Source of the DNA: Tomocerus qinae
Lineage: Eukaryota; Arthropoda; Collembola; Entomobryomorpha; Tomoceridae
DNA length: 64,000 bases
Assembly: GCA_020055645.1 (NCBI GenBank)
Contig: CM034549.1
Location: 10,691,501-10,755,500 of the forward strand
Direction: 5' to 3'
Positions 8,297 through 55,700 of this stretch are shown here, piece by piece. The notes beneath the pieces were generated by a model. It worked only from the letters and a program-made list of their open reading frames with translations. It was not told the origin of the DNA and searched no databases. Each line of letters starts with the position of its first letter. Position 1 is the first letter of the stretch. Both the position numbers and the translations under genes were made by a program.

Positions 8297-11200
8297 TCTT
8301 AACGGACCATGTGTCTTAAGGGACCATGTGCCTTAGCGGACCATGTGTCTTAGCGGACCGTATGTCTTAGCGGACCATGTGTCTTAACGGACCATGTGTC
8401 TTAGCGCACCATGTGTCTTAGCGCACCATGTGTCTTAGCGGACCATGTGTCTTAACGGACCATGTGTCTTAGCGGACCATGTGTCTTAACGGACCATGTG
8501 TCTTAGCGGACCATTTGTCTTAACGGACCATGTTTCTTAACGGACCATGTGTCTTAACGGACCATGTGTCTTAGCGGACCATGTGTCTTAACGGACCATG
8601 TGTCTTAGCGGATCATGTGTCTTAGCGGACCATGTGTCTTAACGGACCATGTGTCTTAGCGGACCGTATGTCTTAGCGGACCATGTGTCTTAACGGACCA
8701 TGTGTCTTAACGGACCATGTGTCTTAACGGACCATGTGTCTTAACGGACCATGTGTCTTAACGGACCATGTGTCTTAACGGACCATGTGTCTTAAGGGAC
8801 CATGTGTCTTAACGGACCATGTGTCTTAGGGGACCGTATGTCTTAGCGGACCATGTGTCTTAACGGACCATGTGTCTTAGCGGACCGTATGTCTTAGCGG
8901 ACCATGTGTCTTAACGGACCATGTGTCTTAACGGACCATGTGTCTTAGCGCACCATGTGTCTTAGCGGACCATGTGTCTTAACGGACCATGTGTCTTAGC
9001 GGACCATGTGTCTTAACGGACCATGTGTCTTAGCGGACCATTTGTCTTAACGGACCATGTTTCTTAACGGACCATGTGTCTTAACGGACCATGTGTCTTA
9101 GCGGACCATGTGTCTTAACGCACCATGTGTCTTAGCGGATCATGTGTCTTAACGGACCATGTGTCTTAGCGGACCATGTGTCTTAACGGACCATGTTTCT
9201 TAACGGACCATGTGTCTTAGCGGACCATGTGTCTTAACGGACCATGTGTCTTAACGGACCATGTGTCTTAAGGGACCATGTGTCTTAACGGACCATGTGT
9301 CTTAGCGGACCGTATGTCTTAGCGGACCATGTGTCTTAACGGACCATGTGTCTTAACGGACCATGTGTCTTAGCGCACCATGTGTCTTAGCGGACCATGT
9401 GTCTTAACGGACCATGTGTCTTAGCGGACCATGTGTCTTAACGGACCATGTGTCTTAGCGGACCATTTGTCTTAACTGACCATGTTTCTTAACGGACCAT
9501 GTGTCTTAACGGACCATGTGTCTTAGCGGACCATGTGTCTTAACGGACCATGTGTCTTAGCGGATCATGTGTCTTAACGGACCATGTGTCTTAGCGGACC
9601 ATGTGTCTTAACGGACCATGTTTCTTAACGGACCATGTGTCTTAACGGACCATGTGTCTTAGCGGACCATGTTTCTTAACGGACCATGTGTCTTAACGGA
9701 CCATGTGTCTTAAGGGACCATGTGCCTTAGCGGACCATGTGTCTTAGGGGACCGTATGTCTTAGCGGACCATGTGTCTTAACGGACCATGTGTCTTAACG
9801 GACCATGTGTCTTAGCGGACCATGTTTCTTAACGGACCATGTGTCTTAGCGGACCATGTGTCTTAGCGGACCATGTGTCTTAAGGGACCATGTGTCTTAG
9901 CGGACCATGTGTCTTAGCGGACCATGTGTTTTAGCGGACCGTATGTCTTAGCGAACCATGTGTCTTAGCGGACCATGTGTCTTAGCGGACCATGTGTCTT
10001 AACGGACCATGTGTCTTAGCGGACCATGTGTCTTAACGGACCATGTGTCTTAGCGGACCATGTGTCTTAACGGACCATGTGTCTTAACGGACCATGTGTC
10101 TTAACGGACCATGTGTCTTAACGGACCATGTGTCTTAACGGACCATGTGTCTTAGCGGACCATGTGTCTTAACGGGCCATGTGTCTTAGCGGACCATGTG
10201 TCTTAGCGGACCATGTGTCTTAACGGACCGTATGTCTTAGCGAACCATGTGTCTTAGCGGACCATGTGTCTTAGCGGACCATGTGTCTTAACGGACCATG
10301 TGTCTTAGCGGACCATGTGTCTTAACGGACCATGTGTCTTAGCGGACCATGTGTCTTAGCGGACCATGTGTCTTAACGGACCATGTGTCTTAACGGACCA
10401 TGTGTCTTAACGGACCATGTGTCTTAGCGGACCATGTGTCTTAAGGGACCATGTGTCTTAGCGGACCATGTGTCTTAGCGGACCGTATGTCTTAGCGGAC
10501 CATGTGTCTTAGCGGACCATGTTTCTTAACGGACCATGTGTCTTAACGGACCATGTGTCTTAGCGGACCATGTGTCTTAGCGGACCGTATGTCTTAGCGG
10601 ACCATGTGTCTTAACGGACCATGTGTCTTAGCGGACCATGTGTCTTAGCGCACCATGTGTCTTAACGGACCATGTGTCTTAACGGACCATGTGTCTTAGC
10701 GGACCATGTGTCTTAGCGGACCATGTGTCTTAACGGACCATGTGTCTTAGCGGACCATGTGTCTTAACGGACCATGTGTCTTAGCGGACCATGTGTCTTA
10801 ACGGACCATGTGTCTTAACGGACCATGTGTCTTAACGGACCATGTGTCTTAGCGGACCATGTTTCTTAACGGACCATGTGTCTTAGCGGACCATGTGTCT
10901 TAACGGACCATGTGTCTTAGCGGACCATGTGTCTTAGCGGACCATGTGTCTTAGCGGACCGTGTGTCTTAACGGACCATGTTTCTTAACGGACCATGTGT
11001 CCTAACGGACCATGTGTCTTAGCGGACCATGTGTCTTAACGGACCATGTGTCTTAGCGGACCATGTGTCTTAACGGACCATGTGTCTTAACGGACCATGT
11101 GTCTTAACGGACCATGTGTCTTAGCGGACCATGTTTCTTAACGGACCATGTGTCTTAGCGGACCATGTGTCTTAACGGACCATGTGTCTTAGCGGACCAT

Positions 11201-11513
11201 GTGTCTTAGCGGACCATGTGTCTTAGCGGACCGTGTGTCTTAACGGACCATGTTTCTTAACGGACCATGTGTCCTAACGGACCATGTGTCTTAGCGGACC
11301 ATGTTTCTTAACGGACCATGTGTCTTAACGGACCATGTGTCTTAGCGCACCATGTGTCTTAACGGACCATGTGTCTTAGCGGACCATGTGTCTTAACGGA
11401 CCATGTGTCTTAGCGGACCATGTGTCTTAGCGGACCGTATGTCTTAGCGGACCATGTGTCTTAACGGACCATGTGTCTTAGCGGACCATGTGTCTTAACG
11501 GACCATGTGTCTT
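8297..11513. repeat. 17-bp satellite array, about 189 copies, with higher-order structure
   Basis: A head-to-tail array of the 17-bp monomer TGTCTTARCGGACCATG, where R alternates between A and G. The length (about 3217 bp) gives close to 189 copies. Common variants are GGACCGTATGTC, GCGCACC, ATTTGTC, ATGTTTC, GGATCATG and GTCCTAACGG. Monomer phase is kept almost throughout, so variation is by substitution rather than indel. Variant monomers recur at exact multiples of 17 bp, which shows block duplication. The array starts abruptly after TCGAAATCTT and ends in CTTCAAAAATCC. Since 17 is not a multiple of three and all frames hit stops, the array does not encode a protein. Confidence 0.97.
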
Positions 11514-15479: not shown

Positions 15480-16560
15480 CTAAACATTTAATACAGAAGA
15501 AGTTGCCCGATCCAATTGTCTCTTCATTTCTTCCAGTTCTTGATATTTTCTGTCAGAAATAATATATTGGTGTTTGACAATATTCCTGTAAAAAATAACA
15601 CCGAAAATGCATACAGCAAATAAAACAGGTATCATTATGGCTGTAGCGCACCAGGAGGCTGTTTCTGAAAAGTAAGTGAATTTGATCCAGCACAGAATTA
15701 TCACATCGAGTGTGAATAAGAAAATTGAGATTGTATTGGCGAGTACCCACGACACATCAATATACCACATCATTTTCTCATGCGGAGATTCATGAGGCTT
15801 GGAATTCGGAGACATTTTTGCCACAACCACGATATGAGGAAGAATGCATGTGGAAATCATAATGGCCAACATTGTCGTACAAACTAAAAGAGCTGTTGTT
15901 ACTGTAAAAGCTGCGAGAAGAACTGGATCTGCATCATCATTTATTTGTAACTCAACAGTTGCAACCTTAAAAATGGAGAGATTACAATTTACTAGTTAGA
16001 AGGTTATACCTGAAGATTTGACTATAAACAGAAACTCACCACTGAAAACCCTGCCATGAGTGCTGCCCTTTTATAATTCACAAAATTGTTATTTTACCAT
16101 TAAAATTAGTCATTTACGAATGATTGCCTACATCAACTGCTACTTACAGTTGGAAATATTCATTATTCTACATAAATTGTTTGCATTGAAATTTTACATT
16201 TCGGTTATTCCAGAAAGTTTTGCTTTGCTCAGGTGAAGACGGCGCCAAGCCAGAAATTCTGGGGTGTTCGGATCCTCATTTTCCAAATCGTTTACAGATT
16301 CTACCTTTAAAAGATATTTAACGTGAGAAAAAAGATTTAAATGAAATTAAGACGTTTTATTAGCTGGAAGACTTCAAATGGTCGTTGTATACCTGTTCGA
16401 TCCGAATAACTGGCAAAGATATTGATGTCCCGGCACTGGGGCTGGGTAAGCTCCATGATACTGACCGTGGTCCACGAACTGTAGTTGCAGGACTGGGTGG
16501 TGGACTATTTCTTGGAGATACTGATGGTAAGCTTAAGGTTCCAATATGAACATGGGCCAT
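15480..16560 (-). CDS. Orai: ORAI-family store-operated calcium channel
   Basis: Pore subunit of the calcium-release-activated channel, which works in the plasma membrane and is gated by STIM after ER calcium depletion. Four exons on the minus strand (16560-16393, 16304-16198, 16067-16040, 15965-15480) give 262 residues. The N-terminus is Pro/Ser-rich; then come WRRLHLSKAKL, TM1 with GFSVVATVELQ, TM2 with MISTCILP, TM3 with LFTLDVIILCWIKF and TM4 with IMIPVLFAVCIFG. The acidic C-terminal helix (YQELEEMKRQLDRA) corresponds to the STIM-binding coiled coil. The pore glutamate falls at residue 106, as in human ORAI1, followed by loop acids D111, D112 and D114. The 28-nt third exon is short but is the only phase-compatible solution, and it keeps TM1 spacing exact. 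Oddities: basic positions 87 and 91 are Ser and Glu, and the TM2 histidine is Thr. Confidence 0.93.
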
Positions 16561-17690: not shown

Positions 17691-18005
17691 AGTCCCAAAG
17701 CACCACTATATCTCGGAATATTTAGACGTGACCCCCCAATGTTTCATCGGATCTTTATCGGACATGACCTGAAGGTCACGTTTCCACCCTCCCCACACCC
17801 GACGGGGGTATGGGGAAAAATGACATTCCACCGGTTATGCACCTAAAATTATGTTTATGCATTATGTTTATTTCATTTAGGTTAGGTTAGGTTAGGGGGT
17901 GGGGAGGGTGGAAACGTGATCTTCAGGTCATGTCCGATAAAGATCCGATGAAACATTGGGGGGTCACAGTCTAAATATTCCGAGATATAGTGGTGCTGTG
18001 GGACT
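17691..18005. repeat. inverted repeat with about 110-bp arms around telomere-like repeats
   Basis: The left arm (17691 to about 17800) and right arm (about 17896 to 18005) are near-perfect reverse complements. They share AGCACCACTATATCTCGG, then the CCCCCCAATG and CATGACCTGAAG segments, and finish in the CCACCCTCCCC block. The roughly 95-bp centre carries four TTAGG units (17877-17896). The layout fits a fold-back or MITE-like element; no transposase is present and no clear target-site duplication was found. Confidence 0.85.
17877..17896 (+). repeat. interstitial (TTAGG)4 telomere-type repeat
   Basis: Four perfect tandem TTAGG units, the ancestral arthropod telomere repeat, lie at the edge of the loop of the surrounding inverted repeat and run into a G-rich arm (GGGGTGGGGAGGG). 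Two-unit copies also occur as CCTAACCTAA near 25619 and GGTTAGGTTAG near 27535. Confidence 0.8.
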
Positions 18006-25806: not shown

Positions 25807-25812
25807 TTTATT
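25807..25812 (-). terminator. polyadenylation signal of the MsrA gene
   Basis: AATAAA on the minus strand, about 20 nt past the base of the SECIS-like hairpin. It places the hairpin inside the expected 3' untranslated region. Confidence 0.6.
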
Positions 25813-25830: not shown

Positions 25831-25902
25831 GGATGAACAAAATAATCAGTACCGTAGAAGCCTCGTTAAAGGATTTCTCCACAGCACGTCATAAGAACAT
25901 CC
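25831..25902 (-). promoter_or_regulatory. SECIS-like selenocysteine insertion element (type 2 form)
   Basis: On the minus strand the RNA has GGAUG at 25902-25898 pairing with CAUCC at 25835-25831 as the basal helix. AUGA at 25892-25889 faces GA at 25847-25846, giving the U-U, G-A, A-G, C-U non-Watson-Crick quartet. An unbroken 11-bp helix follows, GUGCUGUGGAG with UUCUACGGUAC, including G-U pairs. AAA at 25876-25874 lies 12 nt after AUGA, as expected for the unpaired adenosines. A mini-stem CCUU/GAGG closes a UAAC loop, which makes it the type 2 form. It starts about 150 nt after the MsrA stop codon. Folding was done by hand. Position, spacing and the link to an in-frame TGA together make a chance match unlikely. 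Confidence 0.85.
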
Positions 25903-26053: not shown

Positions 26054-27117
26054 CTACAGTTGTCTCACAATGTCACAAATAATATTTTCCACATTAGGAG
26101 GCAAGGCCAATTTCTCTAGCTCTTGTTCGAGGCTTTTAATATTCCCATATCCACCCAGGTATCCATTCAGGCGCGTTGCAACAAAAGAATTTATCATTTC
26201 TTCTCCAGGTTCAATCGTCATTTTTGATAGTAAATGAGGATAGCGCTGAAGCAAATATTTTTGATGATAACTAAAAAAACATTTTTTTATTACGCACTAT
26301 TCAGTTCGCACCGGGCCACCCCCTAGCTACGGCCCTGGTAAGTAGGCAGTAGGCACACCCTATATTGAAAAATGCAAAATAATATGCTTAGAATACTTAC
26401 TTTTCAGCGTCATAAAACTTTTCTAGTGGCAGGATTTTTGTCTGTATTGGTCTTTTCCTTTCACCAGATTCCTTTTCTAGAGATTCTTCTGCTAACTTTT
26501 TCTGCTCCATGGAATGATAGAAGATAGCTGACATGTACTGAAATAGGATAAAATGATATTTACACGAACTTCATTTGTTTTAGCTATAATAAAAGGCAGT
26601 ACAATCTGTAATGGTTATAAATAGGAATAAATCGGAATAATAATGATTTGGTAGTGCCTGTCGTGAATAGCATTTGGATGTCGGATCATGGTTCTTCCAG
26701 AATATCTTCAAAAGCTTCTTGTAAGATGTTACTTTTGGATCAAACTCTATCTGAACGGTTTCCGTATGATCTTTCCTAGTCATACAATAATTAAACATAA
26801 TATACAATTTAAATGCAATATATGGTATATAAAATGTTTGGATAAGTTGCAACTTTGGATTAAACTTACATATTTCTGTACGTTGGATTCTCGGAAGAAC
26901 CACCTGCAAATCCGACACGAGTTCGGATTACTCCCGGAGCGCAGCTATAAAAATCATTAGTGACAATTAATTGGTATAAGTAGTTAAATCTAATATTATT
27001 ATAGTTGGCTAAAATTGCATGTTTAAATTACCCGAACTGGCCCTCCGGGAACCAAAATCAAGACATCCCAAAGGAAGCTTTCTCACCTTCCCAATTTTCG
27101 TACAGATCATCTCCCAT
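26054..27117 (-). CDS. MsrA: peptide-methionine (S)-S-oxide reductase MsrA, candidate selenoprotein
   Basis: Reduces methionine-S-sulfoxide in proteins and as free amino acid. Five exons on the minus strand (27117-27032, 26944-26870, 26775-26658, 26537-26401, 26270-26054) give 210 residues if TGA at 27060-27058 is read as selenocysteine. Motif order fits MsrA. ASFGMSUFWFPEGQFG (residues 14-29) has U20 at the catalytic nucleophile, then VGFAGGSSENPTYRNM and HTETVQIEFDP follow. FWKNHDPTSKCYSRQ, YMSAIFYHSMEQK and NYHQKYLLQR come next, and the C-terminal helical extension ends in IVRQL. All phases agree. Intron 3 uses a GC donor (CAG|GC). C30 (GCAPG) and the Cys in TSKCYSRQ are possible resolving residues. 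The exon continues in frame with conserved sequence after TGA, so premature stop or splicing around it is unlikely. No targeting peptide is obvious, suggesting a cytosolic or nuclear enzyme. Confidence 0.92.
27058..27060 (-). other. in-frame TGA, candidate selenocysteine codon
   Basis: Codon 20 of MsrA, between ATG TCT and TTT TGG, is at the position of the catalytic Cys in the GxCFW motif. Upstream (ASFGMS) and downstream (FWFPEGQFG) residues follow the family pattern in one frame, and no splice site separates them. Confidence 0.88.
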
Positions 27118-28662: not shown

Positions 28663-31600
28663 ATGGATCAGGAGAAAGACAACTCAGATGCAGATGTTCA
28701 GATGTCAACTGAAAAATGTTCTGATGGCAGCGGAGAAGTTAAAGAGGGCAAAGTTATCATACGCTATGATGGAAACTACGGAATATTTTATAACCCTATT
28801 CAAGAATTTAATAGAGACATGAGGTTTGCAAAACGGACACTTAAAATCTAACTGCTAGAAAATCAATAGTGGCTTTTGTATCAAAATTACTTGTAAGATG
28901 AGTTAATTGTAAATATCTTACTTTCAGCATTCTTGGAATACACACTTTTATTCAAACAGAAGGAGTGAAGGTGAGTTGGGAGTTACTAAAACATACAAGT
29001 AGTATCTGAAAGTGTAGTATAGTGGAAGTAGGGTTTGCGTACAATTAGACTTATTTCATAGAGCCTATTTGAAAATATTATTTACAATGAAAAATTTATT
29101 TCAACAGGATGAAGTTAAAATTGCCGAAGCTATGGCTGCTTCCGGAATTAGATCAATTCGATATGCCAAGGAGATTGATAAAGTGTCAGCTATTGTAGCC
29201 AACGATTTCTCCCGAAAGGCTTGTGAAAGCATTGATCTAAATTCCAAATTGAATAATGTGGAAGAAATAGTTAGTTCGTCATGTAATGATGCCTGGTATA
29301 GTGATTAATTTTGGTAATTATTTTTAGTTGGCTTTCTCTCATCAGATACATCAATTAAATGTTTTTCATATTATTACAGTGCACTACTACATAGTCATAA
29401 AAACTCTTTTTATGTTGTCGACTTGGATCCGTATGGAACGCCCATGCCATTTTTAGATTCAGCGGTACAAGTAAGTTTTATATGGACAAGCGTAACTATA
29501 AAATATGAATTAATATTATGCCTGGCCTAATTATCCGTTAATTCTAATTATCTGTTATGCAAAATAGGCTGTAGAAAACGGAGGAATTCTTCTTGTAACT
29601 GCAACAGACTTAGCCGTACTCGCAGGAAATCATGCTGATGCATGCTATTCTAAATATGGAGCAATGCCTTTAAAATCAAAAGCCTGCCATGAATTTGTAA
29701 GTGTGTAATATTATATTTTGTTAAAGTATTATTTTCATGTTAATAATTATGCTACATAAATGCCCTTGCAGGCACTCAGGATCGTAATTCACGCAGTTCA
29801 AACACTTTGTAATCGTTATGGCCGAACTGCAATTCCACTGCTATCTCTAAAAATTGACTTCTACGTGAGACTATTTTTTAAAATAATAAAGTCGGCAGAG
29901 AGAGCAAAAGACACGGCCAGGTTAAAAATCTTTTTTTATATATTATTTAATTCATTTGTTTACCCGCGGTAAGATGTTATTTTAGTGTTTATTTTAAAAC
30001 TGTTTTTGTTACTTTCAGTCAAACTTCAATGATATATCAGTGTCTTGGCTGTCAAACTTTAAACTTCCAACCTCTGGCGACTAGAAAAAAAATTAATGAA
30101 AAAAATTACAGTCACAGTTATGCTCAAGGACCGATAGTGCCTCAAAATTGCGAGTTATGTAACTCTAAATCACATGTAAGAATTAAATACTAAACTGTAG
30201 TACTGTCAACGTGAAACAGTCCCAAGCCACACAGAGCTGACTGTACCACGTCTTCCCCATACTCACAAGTCAAACACAAATCTCCATTCTAATTACTACA
30301 CCTTATTCCTCTTCCTTTCCTACATTACACATGTAGTTCAGTGGTCAGAACAATTGCCCGGTTTGCGATAGACACTGGTTTCGATTCCAGTCGTGTGTAT
30401 TCAATTTTTGCCTTCCTTTACCTATCTAACTTCCTAATTTATTCTAATTTACCTTAACTCACCTTCCCTCATTCTGCTCATATACTTACCTCTGAGACAT
30501 CCATCCTGGAGAACTTATAAGCTCACTTACAAGATGCGGGGTAATAATGTATATCACTTCGATATACTTCGGTGTATGTGATGTGCTCTGTGCCCTTTCC
30601 TGTATCTTTCATTAGCATTAGCGAGTAGCCTGACTGACCTCCACCATAGGCAGTCCAATGGCATATATAACTAATCTCTTCAAACCCGACTAACAGTATC
30701 AAACCGTACCTAAGCACATCAAGATGCGAGGGGACCGGGGGGAATGTCAACGTGAAACAGTCCCAAGCCACACAGAGCTGACTGTACCACGTCTTCCCCA
30801 TACTCACAAGTCAAACACAAATCTCCATTCTAATTACTACACCTTATTCCTCTTCCTTTCCTACATTACACATGTAGTTCAGTGGTCAGAACAATTGCCC
30901 GGTTTGCGATAGACACTGGTTTCGATTCCAGTCGTGTGTATTCAATTTTTTGCCTTCCTTTACCTATCTAACTTCCTAATTTATTCTAATTTACCTTAAC
31001 TCACCTTCCCTCATTCTGCTCATATACTTACCTCTGAGACATCCATTCTGGAGAACTTATAAGCTCACTTACAAGACCGCGGGGTAATAATGTATATCAC
31101 TTCGATATACTTCGGTGTATGTGATGTGCTCTGTGCCCTTTCCTGTATCTTTCATTAGCATTAGCGAGTAGCCTGACTGACCTCCACCATAGGCAGTCCA
31201 ATGGCATATATAACTAATCTCTTCAAACCCGACTAACAGTATCAAACCGTACCTAAGCACATCAAGATGCGAGGGGACCGGGGGGGAATGTCAACGTGAA
31301 ACAGTCCCAAGCCACACAGAGCTGACTGTACCACGTCTTCCCCATACTCACAAGTCAAACACAAATCTCCATTCTAATTACTACACCTTATTCCTCTTCC
31401 TTTCCTACATTACACATGTAGTTCAGTGGTCAGAACAATTGCCCGGTTTGCGATAGACACTGGTTTCGATTCCAGTCGTGTGTATTCAATTTTTGCCTTC
31501 CTTTACCTATCTAACTTCCTAATTTTATTCTAATTTACCTTAACTCACCTTCCCTCATTCTGCTCATATACTTACCTCTGAGACATCCATCCTGGAGAAC

Positions 31601-33646
31601 TTATAAGCTCACTTACAAGACCGCGGGGTAATAATGTATATCACTTCGATATACTTCGGTGTATGTGATGTGCTCTGTGCCCTTTCCTGTATCTTTCATT
31701 AGCATTAGCGAGTAGCCTGACTGACCTCCACCATAGGCAGTCCAATGGCATATATAACTAATCTCTTCAAACCCGACTAACAGTATCAAACCGTACCTAA
31801 GCACATCAAGATGCGAGGGGACCGGGGGGAATGTCAACGTGAAACAGTCCCAAGCCACACAGAGCTGACTGTACCACGTCTTCCCCATACTCACAAGTCA
31901 AACACAAATCTCCATTCTAATTACTACACCTTATTCCTCTTCCTTTCCTACATTACACATGTAGTTCAGTGGTCAGAACAATTGCCCGGTTTGCGATAGA
32001 CACTGGTTTCGATTCCAGTCGTGTGTATTCAATTTTTGCCTTCCTTTACCTATCTAACTTCCTAATTTATTCTAATTTACCTTAACTCACCTTCCCTCAT
32101 TCTGCTCATATACTTACCTCTGAGACATCCATCCTGGAGAACTTATAAGCTCACTTACATTGATACTGTTAGTCGGGTTTGAAGAGATTAGTTATATATG
32201 CCATTGGACTGCCTATGGTGGAGGTCAGTCAGGCTACTCGCTAATGCTAATGAAAGATACAGGAAAGGGCACAGAGCACATCACATACACCGAAGTATAT
32301 CGAAGTGATATACATTATTACCCCGCGGTCTTGTAAGTGAGCTTATAAGTTCTCCAGGATGGATGTCTCAGAGGTAAGTATATGAGCAGAATGAGGGAAG
32401 GTGAGTTAAGGTAAATTAGAATAAAATTAGGAAGTTAGATAGGTAAAGGAAGGCAAAAATTGAATACACACGACTGGAATCGAAACCAGTGTCTATCGCA
32501 AACCGGGCAATTGTTCTGACCACTGAACTACATGTGTAATGTAGGAAAGGAAGAGGAATAAGGTGTAGTAATTAGAATGGAGATTTGTGTTTGACTTGTG
32601 AGTATGGGGAAGACGTGGTACAGTCAGCTCTGTGTGGCTTGGGACTGTTTCACGTTGACAGTACGCAATAATGTACTTTATCGTTGAAAATTACCTAAAC
32701 AGATATTTAATTGCTCTATTTTCAATTTCATCTAGTTTGGTGGCCCGATTTGGACAGGACCCATACACGATAAGGCATTTGTTGGTAAAATGCTATATAA
32801 TTTAGCGTCTACCTATTCATATCTGAATACCAAGGATCGAATTGAAGTATGATAACAAATATTAATAAGATGTCTTATTTTCTTGCAGTCCTTAAGGGTT
32901 TTTAGCTATTGGTTAATAAAATGTCAATATGAATTATTTAGGGTCTTCTTACATTAGTAGAAGAAGAAGTGGACACACCTGCGATGTATGACTTGCAACA
33001 GTTGTGCTCAGTAATCAAATGTACGACAGTGCCTATGTTACGCCTTAGGTAAATAGTTTTGACAAATTTTTTCTAATTTTATTGTTGGAGAATAAAAATT
33101 GCAATTCTCCTTATGTTCTTTTAATTATGTTTCAGGTCAGCAATTTTGGAACTTGGATATGAAGTTTCTTTGTCCCACACTGGGCCAAATACTCTTAAGA
33201 CTAATGCTCCAAATAGAGTACTTTGGGATATACTGCATTCATGGCACACCTTTAGCAAAAGCAAAGAACTTCCGTCGGGGACACCGGGATACTTCATTTT
33301 GTCTCAGGACATAGAAACTTTAGGAATTGACTTCAATAAAATCAGACTAGATGCAAATCCAGTTTCTCGGAAAAATGGATACTTAAGATACCAAATGAAT
33401 CCTACAAAATACTGGGGCCCAGGCAGTAAAAGCTCTTTTCACAACAAAGAAGAAGGAACAAAAATAGATAAACGTGCAAAAAATCAAGGGAAAAGAAGAG
33501 AAAACAAAATTCTCCGCAAAGCCGCAGCAGTCAAAGAATATGAAGACAAAAAGAATGAAACGAATAAAGAATCAGAGGAAAGTCTTGAGGAATTAGAAAA
33601 GCAGCCAGATCCGAAAATACCAAAATTAGAAAAGGTTGATCCTTGA
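28663..33646 (+). CDS. Trmt1: tRNA (guanine26-N2)-dimethyltransferase TRMT1
   Basis: Transfers methyl groups from S-adenosylmethionine to G26 of tRNAs. Ten exons join in phase: 28663-28823, 28928-28970, 29108-29295, 29380-29470, 29568-29696, 29772-29920, 30019-30175, 32736-32846, 32942-33048 and 33136-33646, giving 548 residues. Landmarks are [11 protein letters not shown] near residue 45 and the SAM-binding segment [18 protein letters not shown]. The catalytic-site motif [16 protein letters not shown] is in exon 4, followed by [16 protein letters not shown] and a CLGC/CELC zinc-binding pair in exon 7. [12 protein letters not shown] and [13 protein letters not shown] complete the family core. 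The C-terminus is Lys/Arg-rich ([16 protein letters not shown]), a likely nuclear or RNA-binding tail, then acidic. It lacks the CCCH finger of the human protein, and no mitochondrial presequence is obvious. Intron 7 is 2.56 kb, far longer than the others, because of the composite repeat inside it. Confidence 0.95.
30327..30398 (+). other. tRNA-like cloverleaf, copy 1
   Basis: A 72-nt segment folds as a cloverleaf. The acceptor stem is ACACATG with CGTGTGT (7 bp, one G-U). The D stem is GTTC/GAAC, the anticodon stem ATTGC/GCGAT (one G-U) and the T stem ACTGG/CCAGT. Internal promoter-like boxes are TAGTTCAGTGGT (A) and GGTTTCGATTCC (B). The anticodon loop CCGGTTT lacks U33 and has pyrimidine at 37, and the T loop has one extra base. 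It is therefore a tRNA-derived SINE-type head or pseudogene rather than a working tRNA; the nominal anticodon would be GGT (Thr). Confidence 0.7.
30868..30939 (+). other. tRNA-like cloverleaf, copy 2
   Basis: Same 72-nt structure as at 30327, in the second unit, with identical stems and boxes. Confidence 0.68.
31412..31483 (+). other. tRNA-like cloverleaf, copy 3
   Basis: Same 72-nt structure, in the third unit. Confidence 0.68.
31955..32026 (+). other. tRNA-like cloverleaf, copy 4
   Basis: Same 72-nt structure, in the truncated fourth unit, which keeps its 5' part. Confidence 0.68.
32466..32537 (-). other. tRNA-like cloverleaf, inverted copy
   Basis: Reverse-complement copy in the inverted unit, opposite in strand to the other four. 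Confidence 0.68.
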
Positions 33647-45207: not shown

Positions 45208-48200
45208 GTAACACTAACTTTGAATTAATCAGCCTCATTATTACTACTAATTACACGATAGAGTCAATCAATTCTGCAACTCTATGTAATATGTTAATTA
45301 ATTTAATACACATGCATGTTAAAAGTATGAAAGATTGCATTCAAGAGAAACAGGAAAAATTTTTCTACCATGATACTTTATCTCGCTATTTTTACTTGTA
45401 ATTGATTTTACGCTGCTCTCTACGAAATCCGCTTTATTCCTGTCTTTTGGCGACGGTGACCTGTGATATGGCATGACACTCATGATATAATGCAAACTCG
45501 GATGAAATCTCAATTTTCTACAACGTCATTTAATACTGGATCGTCTCGGGTCACTATTTTTCTATCAATTTCTCTACTTCACGCATTTTCACTGAATTAT
45601 CTTTTGAGAAGGAAGGGGATGATTCCCACGTAAGTATTTACCTCTATTTCACATCTAAAGTGGTTACAGATCAAGTAGTATGATTTCAAATCATACTTAC
45701 GTAGCTCTTATAGCTTATGGCAAAGCAAAAAATCATAAAGTGTATAAATTTCAGCCATGAGTGATTAACAAGTTAATTAGGTAGGCAGCTTATGTATAAT
45801 ATGGCATGTCGAATATGTCACATTTCTTATCAAATGCCAAGTATTGCATGTTACATCACATTAAATAGTATCTACTACTTATCAAAGTCATCAGAGTTTC
45901 GCTTACAGACAATAAGTGGGATTGTGCATGTAAAACTGCGTCACAATCACAAGTACCAAACTGAATTCAAATACTTATCAAAGCCATTATCAATGATGGA
46001 ATGAATAGCTAATTGTGGAACTCAGTTAACAGTTAGAGTAATTATTAGTTAAAGATACTCTTACTATAAGCTCAAGTATTTACTTGTATAGGTAGTATAT
46101 AGTTATAGGGATATAATGAATGTTCAGATAATATCTGTACATGTTTGTAATGGGAAATAATGTAATTGTAAGGGTATAATACTAAAATTATCATGTCATT
46201 CGCTTTTAAGATTACAGCCAGGAACCGCAATCTAGAATTCTGTATTGGCGTCCATGAATATTTGAAATTAACATACAATGCATGCAAAATGCTCCAATTC
46301 TATATACAGTATAGTCTGTATAGAATTATTAGAGTACAAATGATATACATATAACATTCAATAGAAAGAAAGCGATAAAATCCGTGAATTACTTTGCCCT
46401 TGGAGTAGGACTCTTATACAATCAACTCTACTACAACTCAAAAGAAAAACACTTATTGGACTTCTGTAATAAAAGTCAGGATTTTGCAGGACTCTTGCAC
46501 AATAAATCTGGAGCTTTATTGATTGAAAGGTCCCAAATGAAAATGAGGAGGAGGAGGGTTTGGCCCTTTTAGTATCAAATAGGCAAGTGTCTTTTTTAGT
46601 AGCTATTAAAAGTAAAACAATTTTCCAAATGAATGATATCGTGTAGTTTCTTGACTGGCATGACTTTGATCTTGAAGAGCGTTGAGTCGGCTTCATTCTA
46701 CGTTCTTAAATTGAATGTCATATAAAGCTTGGCGTCTGGCAAATTCCAAGAAGAGTCTTAACCATGATAAGATAAGAAAAGGTGAAAGCTCATCTTCCCT
46801 TTGTCGTCTAAATGCTTTTTATAATGTCAGATCAGAGAATACTAAACGACAGATACTCTAAGTTACTGTGCAAATCGCAACCAGTGCTTTAAACACACTC
46901 AGATTATCTTTTATGAGATAGCAAAAAATGTACAATTAAATAAAATTGAACAACGCATGTCTTAGCCACGATAAAATCAGAAAATGTTAATTTTTTTCCT
47001 GAGTGGAAAATTCTTGACAAAAGGGTCAATCCTCGTTATATCTTGGAAAGGACATTCTCTTGAAAATTGAACCGTCTGGGTACAGCTACTTCGTTATTAG
47101 GTTATCTCTGTATGTAAATAGAATTGTTGTGACTCATCCTCTGAGCTGCTTTATACCTGCATTCTAATAACACTGTTTAATCCGTAAATACGCTTGACTA
47201 GAATTGGAACAATTGTAGTTTTGTTTAAAGTATACTAGAACCGGGTTTTGTCAGGTTAGCTATTTATAGTAAAAATAAACCTTTTGATAGTGATTTTGGT
47301 TTATAAAGAGTTCATTCATCGTATGCACTAAAATTAACTAGAAGTATAAATGAGGATGATACTCCGAAGTATAACACGTGAATGACACATACAGATAATC
47401 TATTAGGTCGGATAATAAGCACAAAGAATTATAATTAATGGAGCCTGTTAGTTGTCAAGTAATGTTATGATTATTTAATCTGTTTGGGTTGTGTTTGTAA
47501 CACTAAAATCTAAATCCATCGATAGTGCCTATTTGAAACAACAGTATTTGAATTGCAGACTAGAGCAACGAACTTGTCTTTGTGGGACGATAGAATTGAT
47601 AGATGACCATTTTCATTTTTAGCCCAAAGTGAAGTGATGATTGGTATGTGTTAAGATAAATCTATAAAGCATGAAGATCACATGGAAATATGCAATATGC
47701 AATTAAGATCAAGTTCAATCTGGAATATTATTATAGGAAAAAGATTAACTTGGGTTAAGGGTTCATTACTTAACAAATCATGTATTACATTTATGACAAA
47801 GTGCTGATTAAACATCGTTGGATCTCATGCTGACAGTAATAATTAAATTAGCACCAGACACCACAGAGATTCAGAGATCGTTAAATCTAAAACGGATATC
47901 AATGCACACTTGCACACATGATGGGCATTTTGCAACTTTTCCATGTGCTCAAATCATTTATTTTTACCGTGAACTTGATGAGATCCATTCAACCTATTTT
48001 TACACTGCAGAGTGACACCAGAAAAGATATCTACTGTCTCATCTTTTTCTTAATTGCTCTGTCTTGCCATCTCAGTTCTCTATCCTTATACTGTGTGTGT
48101 GTTATATGAGGAAGCATCCCAATTGGTCATTCAGCTATTACTGTCAGTTCAAAATAGTTTGATGTGCACTAACATGAGATATGGCATTTCGTTTCAATAA

Positions 48201-49743
48201 AAGGTTTTAGATAAGATATTCACACTGTAGATTAGAAACTCCCACATTCTCTAATTCTTTATCAAAAACGTAAAATATTGAGAAACTGCGCAAATTCAAC
48301 TTCCTTAGGTAACTCTATCATGGAGAGTTGTGTAATTAGTTCAATTGCTTTACAGTTTGTAATCCTTCACGATGAATTTATTGGGAAATGCATCAATCTT
48401 TTTTTTACTATTGTAGCAAATGAGTTGTAAATTCTGACTCAGAAAAATCTGTATTTTGTAGTTATAACATTAATATTAGTTTTGTGAAAATGTATTAAAA
48501 GACTACTAAATGAAACTAAAAATAATTTCGTAATAATTTACTATAGTTGAATGCCATTTTAGTATGCAGAAAAGTTTAATTTTGTTGAATCGCTTTAAAA
48601 ATTTACAGATTAGCAGTGTAGTATCAATCTACCAAAAGTTTCAATTTCCTGAGTAGCTTAATTTGAGGGAATTAAATGACTGATACTCATTAGTTGCAAC
48701 TTAAAAGTAGGATTTGGGGGAAATGTATTAGAATAGAGTTACAAATGAGGCTTATAAACGTGTAATGAAAACAAATCCCCATAAGTTTGTTACACGCTGT
48801 ACTTCAATATGTCCTGTCCCATAGTAAAGTAGTATGTAACAAAGAGTTAGTAATTAGAGGTCTAATGGTTGAGAAAAGTTGCTAATACGCCAAATATTTA
48901 TGAAGAGTCTGCCAATGTTGACGTAGAACGGGCGTTCTTTCTGAAATTATGAATATGTATGTTATTTCTTATGTAAATTGGCATTACGCAAGTACGTACT
49001 ATAAATTAGAGCAGAAGTATGATGCATAAAACATATGACTGTGTAGGTAGGGATGGCGTAGGTACGTCGCTCCAGCTAATAAGATGCAAGATACGGGGAT
49101 ATATGAGATATAATTTAGTAGGTATGTAGTCTATACCTGCTTACATATGTGAGTGTGTGTGTAAAGGAAGCTGGCTGTTAATGCACAGCGTCTGTCTGTA
49201 TGAGAGTAGTAGTAGGTTGTAGTGTGCAAGTACATAGATGCATATTCCTTTGAGAGAGATAATAATATTAGATCTCCTCCGCACATTAACTCTCACTCCA
49301 CTTGACTCCCTGAGAATTGTATAACTAGTCTGACTTGATCTTGACTCTGGCTCAGTTTGAACCAAAAGTCCGATCCAGCAAGAAAATAAGACCCCGGGAG
49401 ATACTCTCTCTTCTCTGTCTCTTTCTATCTAGTCGGACTAATCAATACAAACACTCATTATCAAAGTGATAATATTTTACAGTGTAGCCCTTGAACAATT
49501 TCTTGTCAATAATTTTCATTCCTATTTCATTCACTACTCTAAATCCTACACACTCGATTCTTTATCAATTTGTACAACTTCAGTTGTATAACGTGTAGTA
49601 GACATAGATTACCTTCACAATTGAAGGAAGTATACTGCACTAAACGGAACACTTTTAAACACTCAAATCCAATCGTTACTTAACGCTCTACCGGTCTCCA
49701 GTCAATTTAAACAAATTCTTACCAAAAGAATTCTGCCTTCATA
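45208..49743. other. intron or promoter region upstream of the short glucose transporter first exon
   Basis: No supported exon was recognised before 49744. The last 350 bp (CT-rich around 49400-49440) probably include the promoter and leader of the short transcript. No TATA box could be assigned. Confidence 0.4.
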
Positions 49744-52700
49744 ATGGTCATCAAAAACGTCGGGGTATGTATTTTATTTCTCAATTCTAATTAAAAGTTT
49801 CTTTTCTCAAAGAATGCTTACATTTGCATCTAGTTTTATTATTTTTAAGACTCTTTTCACTCTACTTACGTAGAAAATTCTCTTTAGGCAATTACAGTAA
49901 AGAAAATAGCAAAGTAAATGGAATCCATGAATTGGAAATTCTTTTAATGGCTAGGCAGAAACATTTTTAGTGTCAAGTGGTAGATTTTCCAGATGCAGAC
50001 AATGCATTTAATTTTTATTAGCCTTTTACTAGCATCTGGGAGAAATTCCAGCAGAAACTAATTGATTTGAAAGGTTGAGATTATTTATTAGTCTGGTTAG
50101 GTTTTACCAGGCAAACATTTTACTCCTGATTAGCAAGCCATAAAAACAAGTCTCATTTGAGCACTGCCTATTGCATTAGCCTTTAAACAAACTTTTTAAT
50201 ACTTTTTAGTTGAGGAACTTGATACTTATTTCAAGCATAACTGTCTACGTCCATTTTCCTGCTTATGCTGGGTAGTAATAATTAAATGGGCAATAGGGAT
50301 CCATGAATATTCAGAACGGAAATGGTTATAGCAGTTTTAATTTCATATTAAATATCCTCTCTGCTTTTTACAACATGCTTTTGAATCTACAAAACGTAAA
50401 CAAGATAGTAATGCAAAATCACTGCAATTAAATTTGCAAAGTAACAAGTCATCAAAAGTAATTAGATAGCTGTTTGTAGCAACATCAGAATCATAATTGC
50501 TTATTATAACATTGTTGCTCTAGCTTAGTATTTTGTGCTGTATCAGTTAGCAGTTAGGATTTACATTTATAGTGATATATTTAGCAGCATATAACGATCA
50601 TTGTCATTTGCTCATAAATAATATTTTGGTTCAATTACAATTGACGATGAAAGTATATAGACTAGTATCTATATAGACTTAATACTCTCGGTACAGGTCA
50701 GCATTTTTATTACTAGATAATATTACCGTCGTAAAATTCGACTTGCGTTGTAATTTAGTAAAAGTTTATGGAGGACACATGAGATAGAGACACGTCGACA
50801 AAGACAAAAGAAGGAGAGTCGCTTCGAGAAAAGGGCAGGGATAAAAACTATCGAATCAAATTAAAGTTGGCAACCCAACCCTTTTACTCAGGACACTTCT
50901 GCGTTTGCACTCAGGGAAATGTTACACTTTTATATATATATACTTTATATTTACACAACTGAGTTATTTCCAGACTAAAGTTCTGGCAGTATAATAAATC
51001 CTACAAATTGGAAGATATTTTTACTATCTCCGCATTTGGCAATTTTTATTTATTGCAAAAGCTTTCTAACTGCAATTGCCATTTTTACATAATAATATAG
51101 CCAGATCACTTATTGTTATTTTAAGTCAGGATTTTCCTCTTATAGATTGTCCTTTCACGTCCTACCTTAACACAAAGTAGTGTAACCTTCTCATGTTAGT
51201 AGAACAGCGTCTGGCATAACAGATGAACTCACGTATGCCAATTTTTGCTTTGTTTATTAGTTAGCAAAAAACAAGTCTACCCTAGAAATATTAGCAGGAA
51301 GCAATAACCATGCATTTTCCATAACTTATGATACGAATTGTAACGCAAACGAACATGATGATAATGGAAACTCATCATTAGCTCAATGATAGTTTACAAG
51401 TTAAAAGTTTTGTCTGGTTCTTCTTCACTCACGAGGTTTGCATTCTATGTCAGGATATTTTTACATGGATTCACTTAACAATTAAATTGAAGTCTCAAGG
51501 TGATTATTACTTACAAGTGCACAGATTAGCGTGACTTTGAATTGTACATTGAATATTTATATTATGCATTAGATCTACATTCACCTCAGCTTTTCCATTA
51601 CGTGCAACAGGTATTAAAATGCTTGGGAAATTTTTGACGTTCGTAGTTCACCCCAAACTAACAATTACATAGTTCTATAAAGAACATTTTGACACAAGCT
51701 ATTTTTAAAAATTTCTAGTCTGCCATTATCATTTATGCTAATTATTAGTTATGATTTATGATTAATTGGACCATAGGAATAAATACTGAAGTGTATGAAG
51801 CATTTTAATAAAACCTTTGCCCATAGGCTACAAATTAATTTTGAGTTGAACTCGTGACATAGGAACCTTCCTGATATGGTGTTACAAAAAATTAACAGGA
51901 TAGTGCAGTTGTGTGAAACGTAGTTACATAATTTAAGTATAAATTTCGTGCAATAAACCGTCAAGTCAGTCACGTACTTTTCTGTTATACATATTCAGCC
52001 ACTACTATAAATAGTTATACGTACTATATTACTCCTATAATTATAAGCAATTAATAGTACAGAGTGTAGAAATGTAATTCAAATTATAAATTCATTTATG
52101 TTAATGAGTCTTTTACATCAGACCGAAGCATTTCGCAGATTTCTGTTAAAATCCATTTACATCTTGTAAACTTCCAAACATCAACCGACTGTGTTCATTT
52201 GTCTAGCCAGATTATCTTATTAATGCATGAGAAATGCAAATTACTTGAATTAATTCCCACTTGACTCTTTTGTTTCTTTTTTCGAATACGAATTTAAAAT
52301 AAACGTACGCAGATACATTATTGTGAGGATGTCTTGTAGCACGCGTTTTTAATTACCAATAAGGCAATCGGTTTTGTCATTTATAGGTAGACGGAGAATA
52401 TTCGCAGTGATATAGCACATGACGAATTAATTTTACTTGACAAAACCAGAACAATAGTATTTTTAGAACATTTCCAATTAGAAAATAAATTACAATTAAG
52501 GTTTTAATGAATGATTACAAGATTTATTACGTGTAACTACTTAGGAATAGTTCTTACTGCATCTTATGACTTAATTAGAAACGATCTGGCATTTGGATGA
52601 TGAGACAGTTGAAAAGAACCTTTGATTCACAAAGAATGCTATACATTGTAGTAGCGTTTATGCAAATAAAACCACTTCATTCTAGTATTTTGTGTTGGAA

Positions 52701-55700
52701 ATCTGCCAAAAGACACTAAATCAAAGAGGAAGATAGATATCTGGAGGGATTTGAGACAGACAGGAAAGCAGATGCGAGATTTGCAAATCTTTTGCAAATA
52801 GCTAAAACGAAATGCATAATTACGTGCGAGACATGTGCCTTCTTTTCGTGCCATGCCTTTTGTTCATAGTAGTAAGGAATGTAGTCATGCCCTGAAAACG
52901 CCTACAGGATGAGCCAATGAAACTCTCTGGTTTTACCAACCCACAGACATTTACAACCGCACCGTCGACCGAATTGACATTCACGTCTCTATATTTACAC
53001 TTTAACATAACAAAACTTATATTCTCAGAATCTTAAATAGAATCGCTTTATGACAGTACACTCCGTTCTTTGTCAACTCTATATCATAATTATAAGACTG
53101 CCAATTCCTAGGATATATATCATTATAAACTTGGGAAGTGCTTCAAAGTACTTACGCTAGTGTAATATGAGTTTGCAAATGTGAATGACTCAATAAACTT
53201 TTGACTTAGGTAGGTACTTAGTGGATATTATTACCATTAGAGCATGCAGTTAGGAAAAGGCTTAAAATAAATCCGATACTTGTAAGGAAAATGCATTTTG
53301 AAGCGCAATTCAAATGTCTATTTCCACTTTGCATCTATTTGGCAATCGATCCTTTTTTCAAAGATGATATTGCATTCAGCTACTTACGTGGGTACTTTAA
53401 TTCTGTCAAAGCCATTGACGTCAATATGCTTTAACTACTAGAGATTGATGTTTAATTCTAATAATAATATCCTGTAATAAGGTGTGAGAGTACGTCGTAA
53501 TATGTTTTTGCTAGTTTCAATGAATTCAATTTACGTGTTCATATTCGCGTAGCTGTAACTAGTTTAAATTGTAGACTTCCTTATTGTTACTCAGTCCTAT
53601 ATAGTCTAAATTACTTCTGAATAGAAAGACAGTTACAGAAATATGAAAGAAACTCTTCTTGTATTTGCGCTGTAATTTTACTACAGTGTTTTTGGCATCC
53701 TTCCAGTTTTCTTTTGTGAATCGGAGAATTAGACTATTTTTTTGATTGTCTGAAAATCCTTTGTTTTGATAAGGAAGACTAAACAGTCCCACCTACAGTT
53801 CCATCGTACTAATTATTTTTTCTGCAATTTTTCTAGTCTCAGTCTCTATTGTTTTCTTATAAAACCAAATCGCAACAGTTTCCATTCTCTAATTTAAGTA
53901 GTTCATTGATCAGGATAATCAGGATCTTAATTCAAGGACGCTTGTTAAGTTAAACGGAACTTTTTAAAAAAAGGGCCTTTTTTGTAAATTCAAACTAAAT
54001 TGAATTTACTTAAATAGTGTACATAAATTTATAGTGTTTGTGACATCGCTTGTGATAAAACGAACTTCTAAAGTAATCTAAGTAGGACGGAAGACTCGGT
54101 TAGCATTTTAAGATATGCCTTTCTTGCAAATTGTGGTATGTTTTTACAATTACCAAATTAATATATAATTCTGTTATAATTGACTATTGTATAGTGTTTG
54201 CATGTTACATTTATAATGCTCTATCGCTACCCGAAAGTTGTTTAGGTTCTTGGACACGTATTCTTGATAAAGTATTTGTTCGCTGTAGTAATGGCTGTAG
54301 AGATAGACACGCTAATGGCCCGTTGCACGTTATTAGATAAAAATTCTCTATTGCCCATCATTAGAAGAATTATTTTGCTATGACAAGGTTCATTGAAGGT
54401 TCACAGTTAAATACGCAGTTAACAATGTCTGTAAGTAATTTAACATAATTTAAACAAGTGCATTTAACGTTAGTTAATAGTAAATACTGCATGAATTTTA
54501 CATTTGAACTATTGCAGAGACATCATTAAATAAGTATTGTCTAGTTCTATTTGAATTACAACTTATACCTTAGCAGAAAGAATATAAGATTTAGCAAATA
54601 GTAGTATTTAGTACTGTCGTGTCTCTAATTTCAAGATGTATTTTGATTTGGATGTAATCTGCGTAGATAAGGCTTGCTAATTCATTTAATGATAGGATTG
54701 TATGTACCTGGAGATAATTTATGCCGCCCCTATCATTATTTAGCACACAAAAACTCAAGATCTCAAAAGGATAGTGTAAACACTAGATATAAATGTGTAC
54801 TCACTTTATAATATAGCATTTTACATTCCGTCTATCAGACCGACCTTTATCCAATCTGTTTGTACATTTAAATTCCTTGACATAAAATATTTTCAAAGTA
54901 GTTTTCCATACTCCTGGAGAGATTTTCTTAGAATCATCTGTCAGACTCCAATCACAATTCTCACACTTGTAATAATAACATTGCATAATAATGAAGTGAA
55001 TATAATCTGTAGCTATTTCGTTATTAAAGACTGTGAAAAGGAGAAATAAATGTTGCTGAAAGAGTAAGTAGACAGTGCTCGTTTGTTTATTCCTAGAAAT
55101 GTCAATCTGGAAATCTTGTTTTGATTGACTGACACTAATCTTATACAATATTTGACACTTCCATAGAGAAAGTGATTTGTAGTAGCTAATATTTAATTCT
55201 AGCACAACTTAAATTCAACGCATACTTATACATTGTGATATCTGGTACTAAATAGTTATGTGTATAAGACATTATTCCATTGCACTCTCATGTATATTTG
55301 TATAATTAAGTAGCCAGACACAGACGCGTATGTCTATAGCGTGTCTGGTTCGCCTTGAAGATCAACTTGCTAATTACTGAATATTATCTTTCTAAATTAC
55401 GATATTTATAGATATAAGGTAGTATGCATAACAGACAAACTTAGACAAAGCATCATTAATTTCCCATTCGACATTTTCTCTATGAATTTATTATTTACAC
55501 CTATTAGATTTAGATCCGAAATTCACACATTTTTATATTATTATGTATTCATGCATTTATTTATATAAAAATGAGTGTGACGTTTTCAGGGTGCGAATTG
55601 TATAGTACTTAAGGGTGCTTTGGTATCTATCTCATTCATATTCAACAGATATTTGTACAAAGTGCATGTCATACCGGCACGATTCAATAATTATTCAGAA

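Follow-up and report, generated by a model that had tools for sequence, protein, structure and literature searches.

The MsrA of Clostridium oremlandii (CoMsrA), represented by PDB entries 4lwj and 4w8c (PMC4333827), is described as a selenoprotein in its native form, with 20 times the activity of the Cys form and almost none once the helical domain is removed (PMC4333827; PMC4479559); variants of its residue E55 have also been described (PMC4479559). In animals, MsrA with selenocysteine (Sec) is listed for Daphnia pulex, Ixodes scapularis, Strigamia maritima, and Branchiostoma floridae, and as of 2014 only Cys forms were given for insects and vertebrates; insects are reported to have lost most selenoproteins (PMC4244043). 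Another survey gives Sec-MsrA in five of six invertebrate genomes, B. floridae among them (PMC3473315). A further relevant system concerns the decoding of the Sec codon: stem-loops beside the Sec UGA, known as Sec redefinition elements (SREs), are reported to promote UGA redefinition in SELENON and to occur in selenophosphate synthetase (SPS) genes (PMC3541580, PMC4561486).

Here we analyzed a 64-kb window (C4:10691501–10755500; C numbers denote contigs) of a 334.4-Mb assembly of 115 contigs, with 14 prokaryotic genomes as controls. The window contains an MsrA gene, referred to as gene A, whose nearest solved structures are those of the MsrA selenoprotein of bacteria, including its helical domain.

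An MsrA Gene With TGA at the Catalytic Codon

Gene A lies on the minus strand, which the earlier note does not mention, and spans, from ATG to stop, exactly positions 26054–27117 of the window. Coding exon 1 (27032–27117) runs from the ATG to GG, followed by the donor GTAATT; exons 2 and 4 lie at 26870–26944 and 26401–26537, and exon 5, at 26054–26270, ends with the stop TAG and carries the profile match to the helical domain (residues 162–195). Exon 3 (26658–26775) is followed by a weak GC donor (GCACTA), to which the earlier note makes no reference. The introns measure 87, 94, 120, and 130 nt, and three of the four are GT-AG; the GC donor of intron 3, at which relatives B and C (see below) have GT, counts against the explanation that we favor. 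The earlier note had described a five-exon MsrA that keeps phase to a normal stop, which the spliced gene bears out: its 633 nt form a single frame of 210 residues plus stop, without a frameshift and with the TGA of codon 20 as the sole internal stop. This TGA (27058–27060, minus strand), the putative Sec codon, falls on the catalytic Cys in alignments to CoMsrA structures, the Cys being that of FALGCFWG in PDB 7c13, 4u66, and 4lwj, so that the replacement of the catalytic Cys by TGA and the motif GMSUFWFPEGQFG were both correctly read. The TGA-containing MsrA is a real observation.

With codon 20 entered as Cys, the translation matches Pfam PMSR (PF01625; 6.1e-43, 147.1 bits, cut-off 23.7) and, in its C-terminal part, MsrA_helical (PF20939; 2.7e-10, 40.3 bits, cut-off 23.7), a family titled “Selenoprotein methionine sulfoxide reductase A, helical domain.” Thirty distinct PDB sequences match it at E ≤ 0.001, and the best seven of them include 4lwj and 4w8c. 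The active-site motif GUFWG/GCFWG reads SUFWF in gene A, with U, F, and W kept and the two Gly replaced by Ser and Phe, both of which also occur in relatives B and C. The Gly following W varies elsewhere too, being His in sequence L001. At the positions of CoMsrA Glu55, Tyr47, and Tyr90 gene A has Glu (its Glu59), Tyr, and Tyr; the two Tyr of CoMsrA presumably have roles in the enzyme. Scans of a viral collection and of prokaryote genomes yielded one distant MsrA and one relative in an archaeal bin, respectively, neither of which helps to place gene A.

SECIS Element

The SECIS-like hairpin announced for the 3' region is also real, and is located outside the coding span at 25832–25901 (minus strand), 152 nt past the stop codon. 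It consists of ATGAC, an 11-bp helix, an apical AAA, and CTGAT, with a poly(A) signal AATAAA just beyond it (25807–25812, minus strand), and is structurally complete and well placed. The SECIS_1 match scores 30.2 bits, under the Rfam gathering threshold of 35, which is why a gathering-level search of the window gives five tRNA-like matches only. Its E value, 0.0026 in 2.5 kb, becomes 0.066 when the entire window is set against 4227 families; dividing the latter value by the number of families gives about 1.6e-5 for SECIS_1 alone. At E values up to 10, no other SECIS match occurs in the window, and of the matches that are not tRNA-like this one is the best. The element folds at −22.8 kcal/mol compared with −13.9 ± 2.6 for shuffled sequences (3.5 sd; none of 200 as stable). 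A strict SECIS descriptor found one match on both strands of the window, compared with 0.17 on average in 30 simulated sequences of 64 kb, and a looser descriptor found five. A genome-wide SECIS_1 search at E ≤ 0.001 returned none, but scored 150 of 6070 candidates and is uninformative by its own output.

A Predicted Hairpin Across the First Exon Junction

Folding of the spliced mRNA predicts a 9-bp stem that starts after a 6-nt spacer downstream of the TGA. Its 5' arm, TTCCCGGAG, lies in exon 1 (27043–27051, minus strand) and its 3' arm, CTCCGGGAG, in exon 2 (26931–26939, minus strand). Because the arms sit in separate exons and meet by splicing only, the hairpin can form only once intron 1 is removed: over 60 nt, the spliced RNA folds at −27.7 and the unspliced RNA at −10.3. 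In a 1030-nt mRNA model the pair probabilities range from 0.466 to 0.999, with eight of the nine pairs above 0.93 and the outermost at 0.47.

The 48 nt past the TGA fold at −24.0 kcal/mol, compared with −11.1 ± 2.8 for synonymous versions, none of which (0/2000) was as stable. The count rose to 1 of 2000 when codons were drawn from a wider pool and to 22 of 2000 with G+C-matched versions; against the latter, the hairpin stands out at about the 1% level only. Across the coding sequence (170 twenty-codon windows without the TGA, 200 draws each), the lowest z scores, −5.1, −5.0, and −4.7, were found for windows starting at codons 23, 22, and 21; in seven other exons of the 64-kb stretch (291 windows, 80 draws each), the lowest was −2.43. 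By the synonymous null, the hairpin is exceptional in gene A alone (z = −4.39) and weaker in all four relatives encoded by the same genome (B, −1.78; C, −1.46; D, +0.54; E, −1.76). By analogy, it may represent a splice-assembled Sec redefinition element. We also considered the hairpin as the driver of the Gly-to-Phe change after Trp and rejected this idea, as Gly codons weaken the stem only partly (−19.4 to −21.5 vs. −24.0 over 48 nt) and the Phe is common to B, C, and E, whose hairpins are unexceptional.

Four Relatives of Gene A in the Same Genome

A genome search with PMSR gave 14 exon matches, two of which belong to gene A, five to two ordinary MsrA genes with the GCFW motif (C1:44.4 Mb, two matches; C2:43.1 Mb, three matches) and seven to four A-type genes. 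Relative B (C1:111414153–111415057, plus strand; three GT-AG introns) has TGA at the same codon as gene A. In relative C (C1:137815169–137816491, minus strand), for which a start codon was not found, the site is TCG (Ser). The other two are intronless: relative D (C2:1610407–1611093) has TGC (Cys), and relative E (C2:1881358–1882200) has Met-Lys at the site, with 3 extra nt and with the TGA persisting out of frame within ATGAAA. The helical domain was detected in B, C, and D and not in E (E ≤ 0.001). GMS-x-FWF is common to A, B, and C, which implies that this odd motif is old. At the position equivalent to CoMsrA Glu55, Glu is found in A, B, and D, and Gln in C and E; the Gln fits copies that would have given up catalysis together with Sec or Cys.

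All ten pairs among A–E show pS of 0.72–0.94 (0.71 for B and C in a separate alignment) and pN of 0.24–0.44, values that reflect long-term constraint and are insensitive to a very recent decay of A. For A and B (61% identity) pS is 0.91 and pN 0.24–0.25, and for A and C they are 0.755 and 0.27. Such near saturation of synonymous sites together with conserved proteins argues against gene A being a pseudogene, and strongly so against a long-standing decay. In the family tree, which is weakly supported, the branch of A is the shortest (0.007); with support of 45–74, we claim no order of events among the relatives.

For relative B, Rfam, the strict descriptor, and the energy scan detected no SECIS, but for the TGA-bearing SPS genes described below scans of these kinds likewise yielded weak candidates at best or no match. 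We nevertheless noticed ATGAC…AAACC…CGAT at 211 nt past the stop, a candidate SECIS with a weak helix (−7.2 kcal/mol) that resembles the core of the GPx SECIS. On these two grounds, we do not count the absence of a SECIS from relative B as a finding.

Selenocysteine Machinery and Other Probable Selenoproteins

According to the earlier note, a Sec-MsrA would show that the species keeps Sec insertion, and the absence of tRNA-Sec and eEFSec from the genome would refute such a gene. Both tRNA-Sec and an eEFSec domain were looked for and are present, together with SepSecS and TGA-bearing SPS genes. We found three tRNA-Sec genes (76.9, 76.4, and 76.4 bits, cut-off 47) with the anticodon TCA. Since the tRNA-Sec family matches all 14 prokaryotic controls, five of them above the cut-off, score and anticodon carry more weight here than a bare match. 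An eEFSec domain on C1 (54.7 bits) has no match in any of the 14 controls. SepSecS has four matches on C5 and is matched in 3 of 14 controls; two of the four stretches contain TGA, as the last and the third residue, apparently at exon edges.

SelD gave 13 matches and is matched in 13 of 14 controls; only the gene on C3, with in-frame neighbors, exceeds the curated cut-off. The selenophosphate synthetase genes carry TGA at the Sec position on C3 (48327281–48328438; DLKG*GCK) and C9 (76099–81914; ELKG*GCK), and CGA (Arg) on C5 (1727040–1727866). SPS, like MsrA, therefore occurs in several Sec-position states within this genome. The copies with TGA and Arg recall the SPS duplication that has been placed near the insect root (PMC4561486), and an independent duplication is possible. 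Part of the SPS region on C9 recurs inverted (46000–55900 vs. 75000–84900), the two being 98.5% identical along 6.4 kb; the first SPS exons, which bear the TGA, lie beyond this alignment and did not turn up in the second C9 stretch.

Among four GPx matches, three have Cys, and in one of these the matching segment contains a TAG close to its beginning; the fourth has TGA in NVASK*GKT. Downstream of the latter (L044, C5:14941516) there is a SECIS match of 25.3 bits, below gathering, and this GPx is likely a second selenoprotein. Taken together, tRNA-Sec, SepSecS, the eEFSec domain, SPS, and the TGA-containing GPx make selenoprotein synthesis in this species very probable. A search for 7tm_6, the family of insect odorant receptors, run without an insect control, gave one weak genome match (31.7 bits) that contains a stop. 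The animal is therefore unlikely to be an insect with the usual odorant receptors and is probably no typical insect; a non-insect hexapod, for instance a springtail, would fit both this result and the SPS copies.

Genomic Neighborhood

The neighbors of gene A include genes for Orai, a prominin-like protein (under the Pfam cut-off), Trm1, and a sugar transporter, as well as a weak DM4/DM12 match, a family that we take to be of arthropods. The Orai-like channel (15480–15995, minus strand) shows many differences from the aligned PDB structure sequence, presumably from Drosophila. At 30200–32664, within an apparent intron of the Trm1 tRNA methyltransferase gene, a unit is repeated in four direct copies and one inverted copy spaced by 541–544 bp. 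Each contains a tRNA-like sequence assigned by ARAGORN to Thr (GGT), an anticodon unusual for a eukaryotic nuclear Thr tRNA. A minisatellite with a 17-bp unit (8297–11513; 94.6 copies of a 34-bp period by TRF) is responsible for a local rise in G+C, and the contig-internal position 17877–17896 contains four units of TTAGG, the telomere repeat most arthropods share. The sequences L015 (165–379) and L038 (208–343) contain long inverted repeats with microRNA-family matches under the cut-offs, and are possibly small inverted-repeat transposons.

Discussion

We consider it highly probable that gene A is nuclear and functional and encodes a helical-domain selenoprotein methionine-S-sulfoxide reductase A, its decoding and activity being deduced from sequence; the Sec-MsrA interpretation of the earlier note is thereby supported. 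In the mechanism that we propose, the SECIS would help the ribosome to decode UGA codon 20 as Sec, and the UGA-proximal hairpin would probably aid decoding as a Sec redefinition element. Sec20 would then attack methionine-S-sulfoxide with the assistance of Glu59, and the enzyme might be recycled by glutaredoxin/glutathione or by one of its own Cys residues (C30, C89). Besides the GC donor, points against this reading are the SECIS score below the Rfam gathering threshold, the level of the hairpin at matched G+C, the weaker hairpins of all four relatives, and, for what it is worth, the empty genome-wide SECIS_1 search.

A Cys codon (TGT or TGC) is one base away from TGA, so that a Cys-MsrA gene bearing a sequencing error or a rare nonsense allele has to be considered. 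Such an origin would leave a SECIS in the right place to coincidence and would leave unaccounted for the TGA at the same codon of relative B, which is on another contig and has diverged to synonymous saturation, as well as the Sec machinery kept by the genome; we regard it as extremely unlikely. Decay of a former selenoprotein gene into a pseudogene would agree with the GC donor of intron 3 and with the replacement of both Gly of GCFWG by Ser and Phe, and a very recent decay is compatible with the pairwise rates. However, gene A has neither a frameshift nor a second internal stop, its SECIS structure is complete, and the Ser and Phe are old, as they are shared by relatives. The pS of 0.755–0.91 to B and C compared with pN of 0.24–0.27, and the shortest family branch (in a weakly supported tree), likewise speak against a pseudogene, which we find very unlikely.

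The UGA might also be decoded as a different amino acid by read-through that does not involve Sec insertion driven by a SECIS, which has been proposed for insect SPS1-UGA, and a hairpin near the UGA is reported to be able to promote read-through by itself (PMC4561486). Yet SPS1-UGA is described there as SECIS-less, while gene A has a SECIS and keeps the equivalents of CoMsrA Glu55, Tyr47, and Tyr90, and we judge this reading very unlikely as well. As for bacterial contamination or recent bacterial transfer, suggested by the bacterial origin of the nearest solved relative, its probability appears negligible in the face of four introns, a eukaryotic SECIS, a poly(A) signal, an identity to CoMsrA of 41.5%, and a position on a 33.8-Mb contig among animal-type genes; gene structure is already enough to refute it.

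Accepting gene A as a Sec-MsrA gene, we tentatively put forward a broader scenario, which we hold to be possible though somewhat less than an even chance. One genome would contain, along with the parent Sec-MsrA, four or more descendants that are leaving or have left Sec by different routes: B with TGA and a weakened SECIS, C with Ser, the intronless D with Cys, and E with Met-Lys and a TGA shifted out of frame by the 3 extra nt. The copies without Sec or Cys, devoid of the catalytic Glu, would serve in another role, and Sec insertion in the parent would be tied to splicing, because the hairpin assembles only on the joining of exons 1 and 2. A Sec parent accompanied by Cys, Ser, and Met-Lys relatives, all with conserved proteins, provides a within-species series for testing how a Sec codon is replaced while the enzyme is kept, with copy D, which has Cys, as a substitute at hand. 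The cross-junction hairpin, if true, would make Sec decoding dependent on splicing.

Comparison With Known Systems

A Sec-MsrA in an arthropod had been expected to be notable. The gene itself stands, but Sec-MsrA was already listed for non-insect arthropods (PMC4244043), and would surprise more in an insect. A search by titles and the beginnings of abstracts, covering part of the literature, found no report of Sec-MsrA from a hexapod, which does not prove novelty. Gene A resembles the invertebrate Sec-MsrA of PMC4244043 and PMC3473315 in being an animal MsrA with a putative Sec at the catalytic site, a likeness by description rather than sequence; the descriptions available from these sources do not mention a five-copy family. 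With CoMsrA it shares the catalytic Sec (as deduced for gene A), the helical domain, and Glu55, with 41.5% identity over 195 aligned residues. CoMsrA differs in being encoded by a bacterial gene and in its GCFWG/GUFWG motif, compared with SUFWF in gene A, and is described as free of any Cys (PMC4333827), whereas the gene A protein has C30, C89, and C204.

The hairpin of gene A is comparable to the SRE of SELENON and SPS2, described as a stem-loop directly 3' of the Sec UGA (PMC3541580, PMC4561486), but, unlike these, it has its arms in different exons and is known here from predicted folding. The relatives of gene A, in turn, parallel the insect SPS1-UGA and SPS1-Arg copies of SPS2, which are likewise reported as duplicated copies of a selenoprotein gene whose Sec site carries UGA or a different residue (PMC4561486). 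SPS1-UGA, a different enzyme, is described as lacking a SECIS, in contrast to relative B with its possible weak one. Compared with these systems, the surprising parts of the present locus are the five-copy family and the predicted splice-dependent hairpin, rather than the Sec-MsrA itself.
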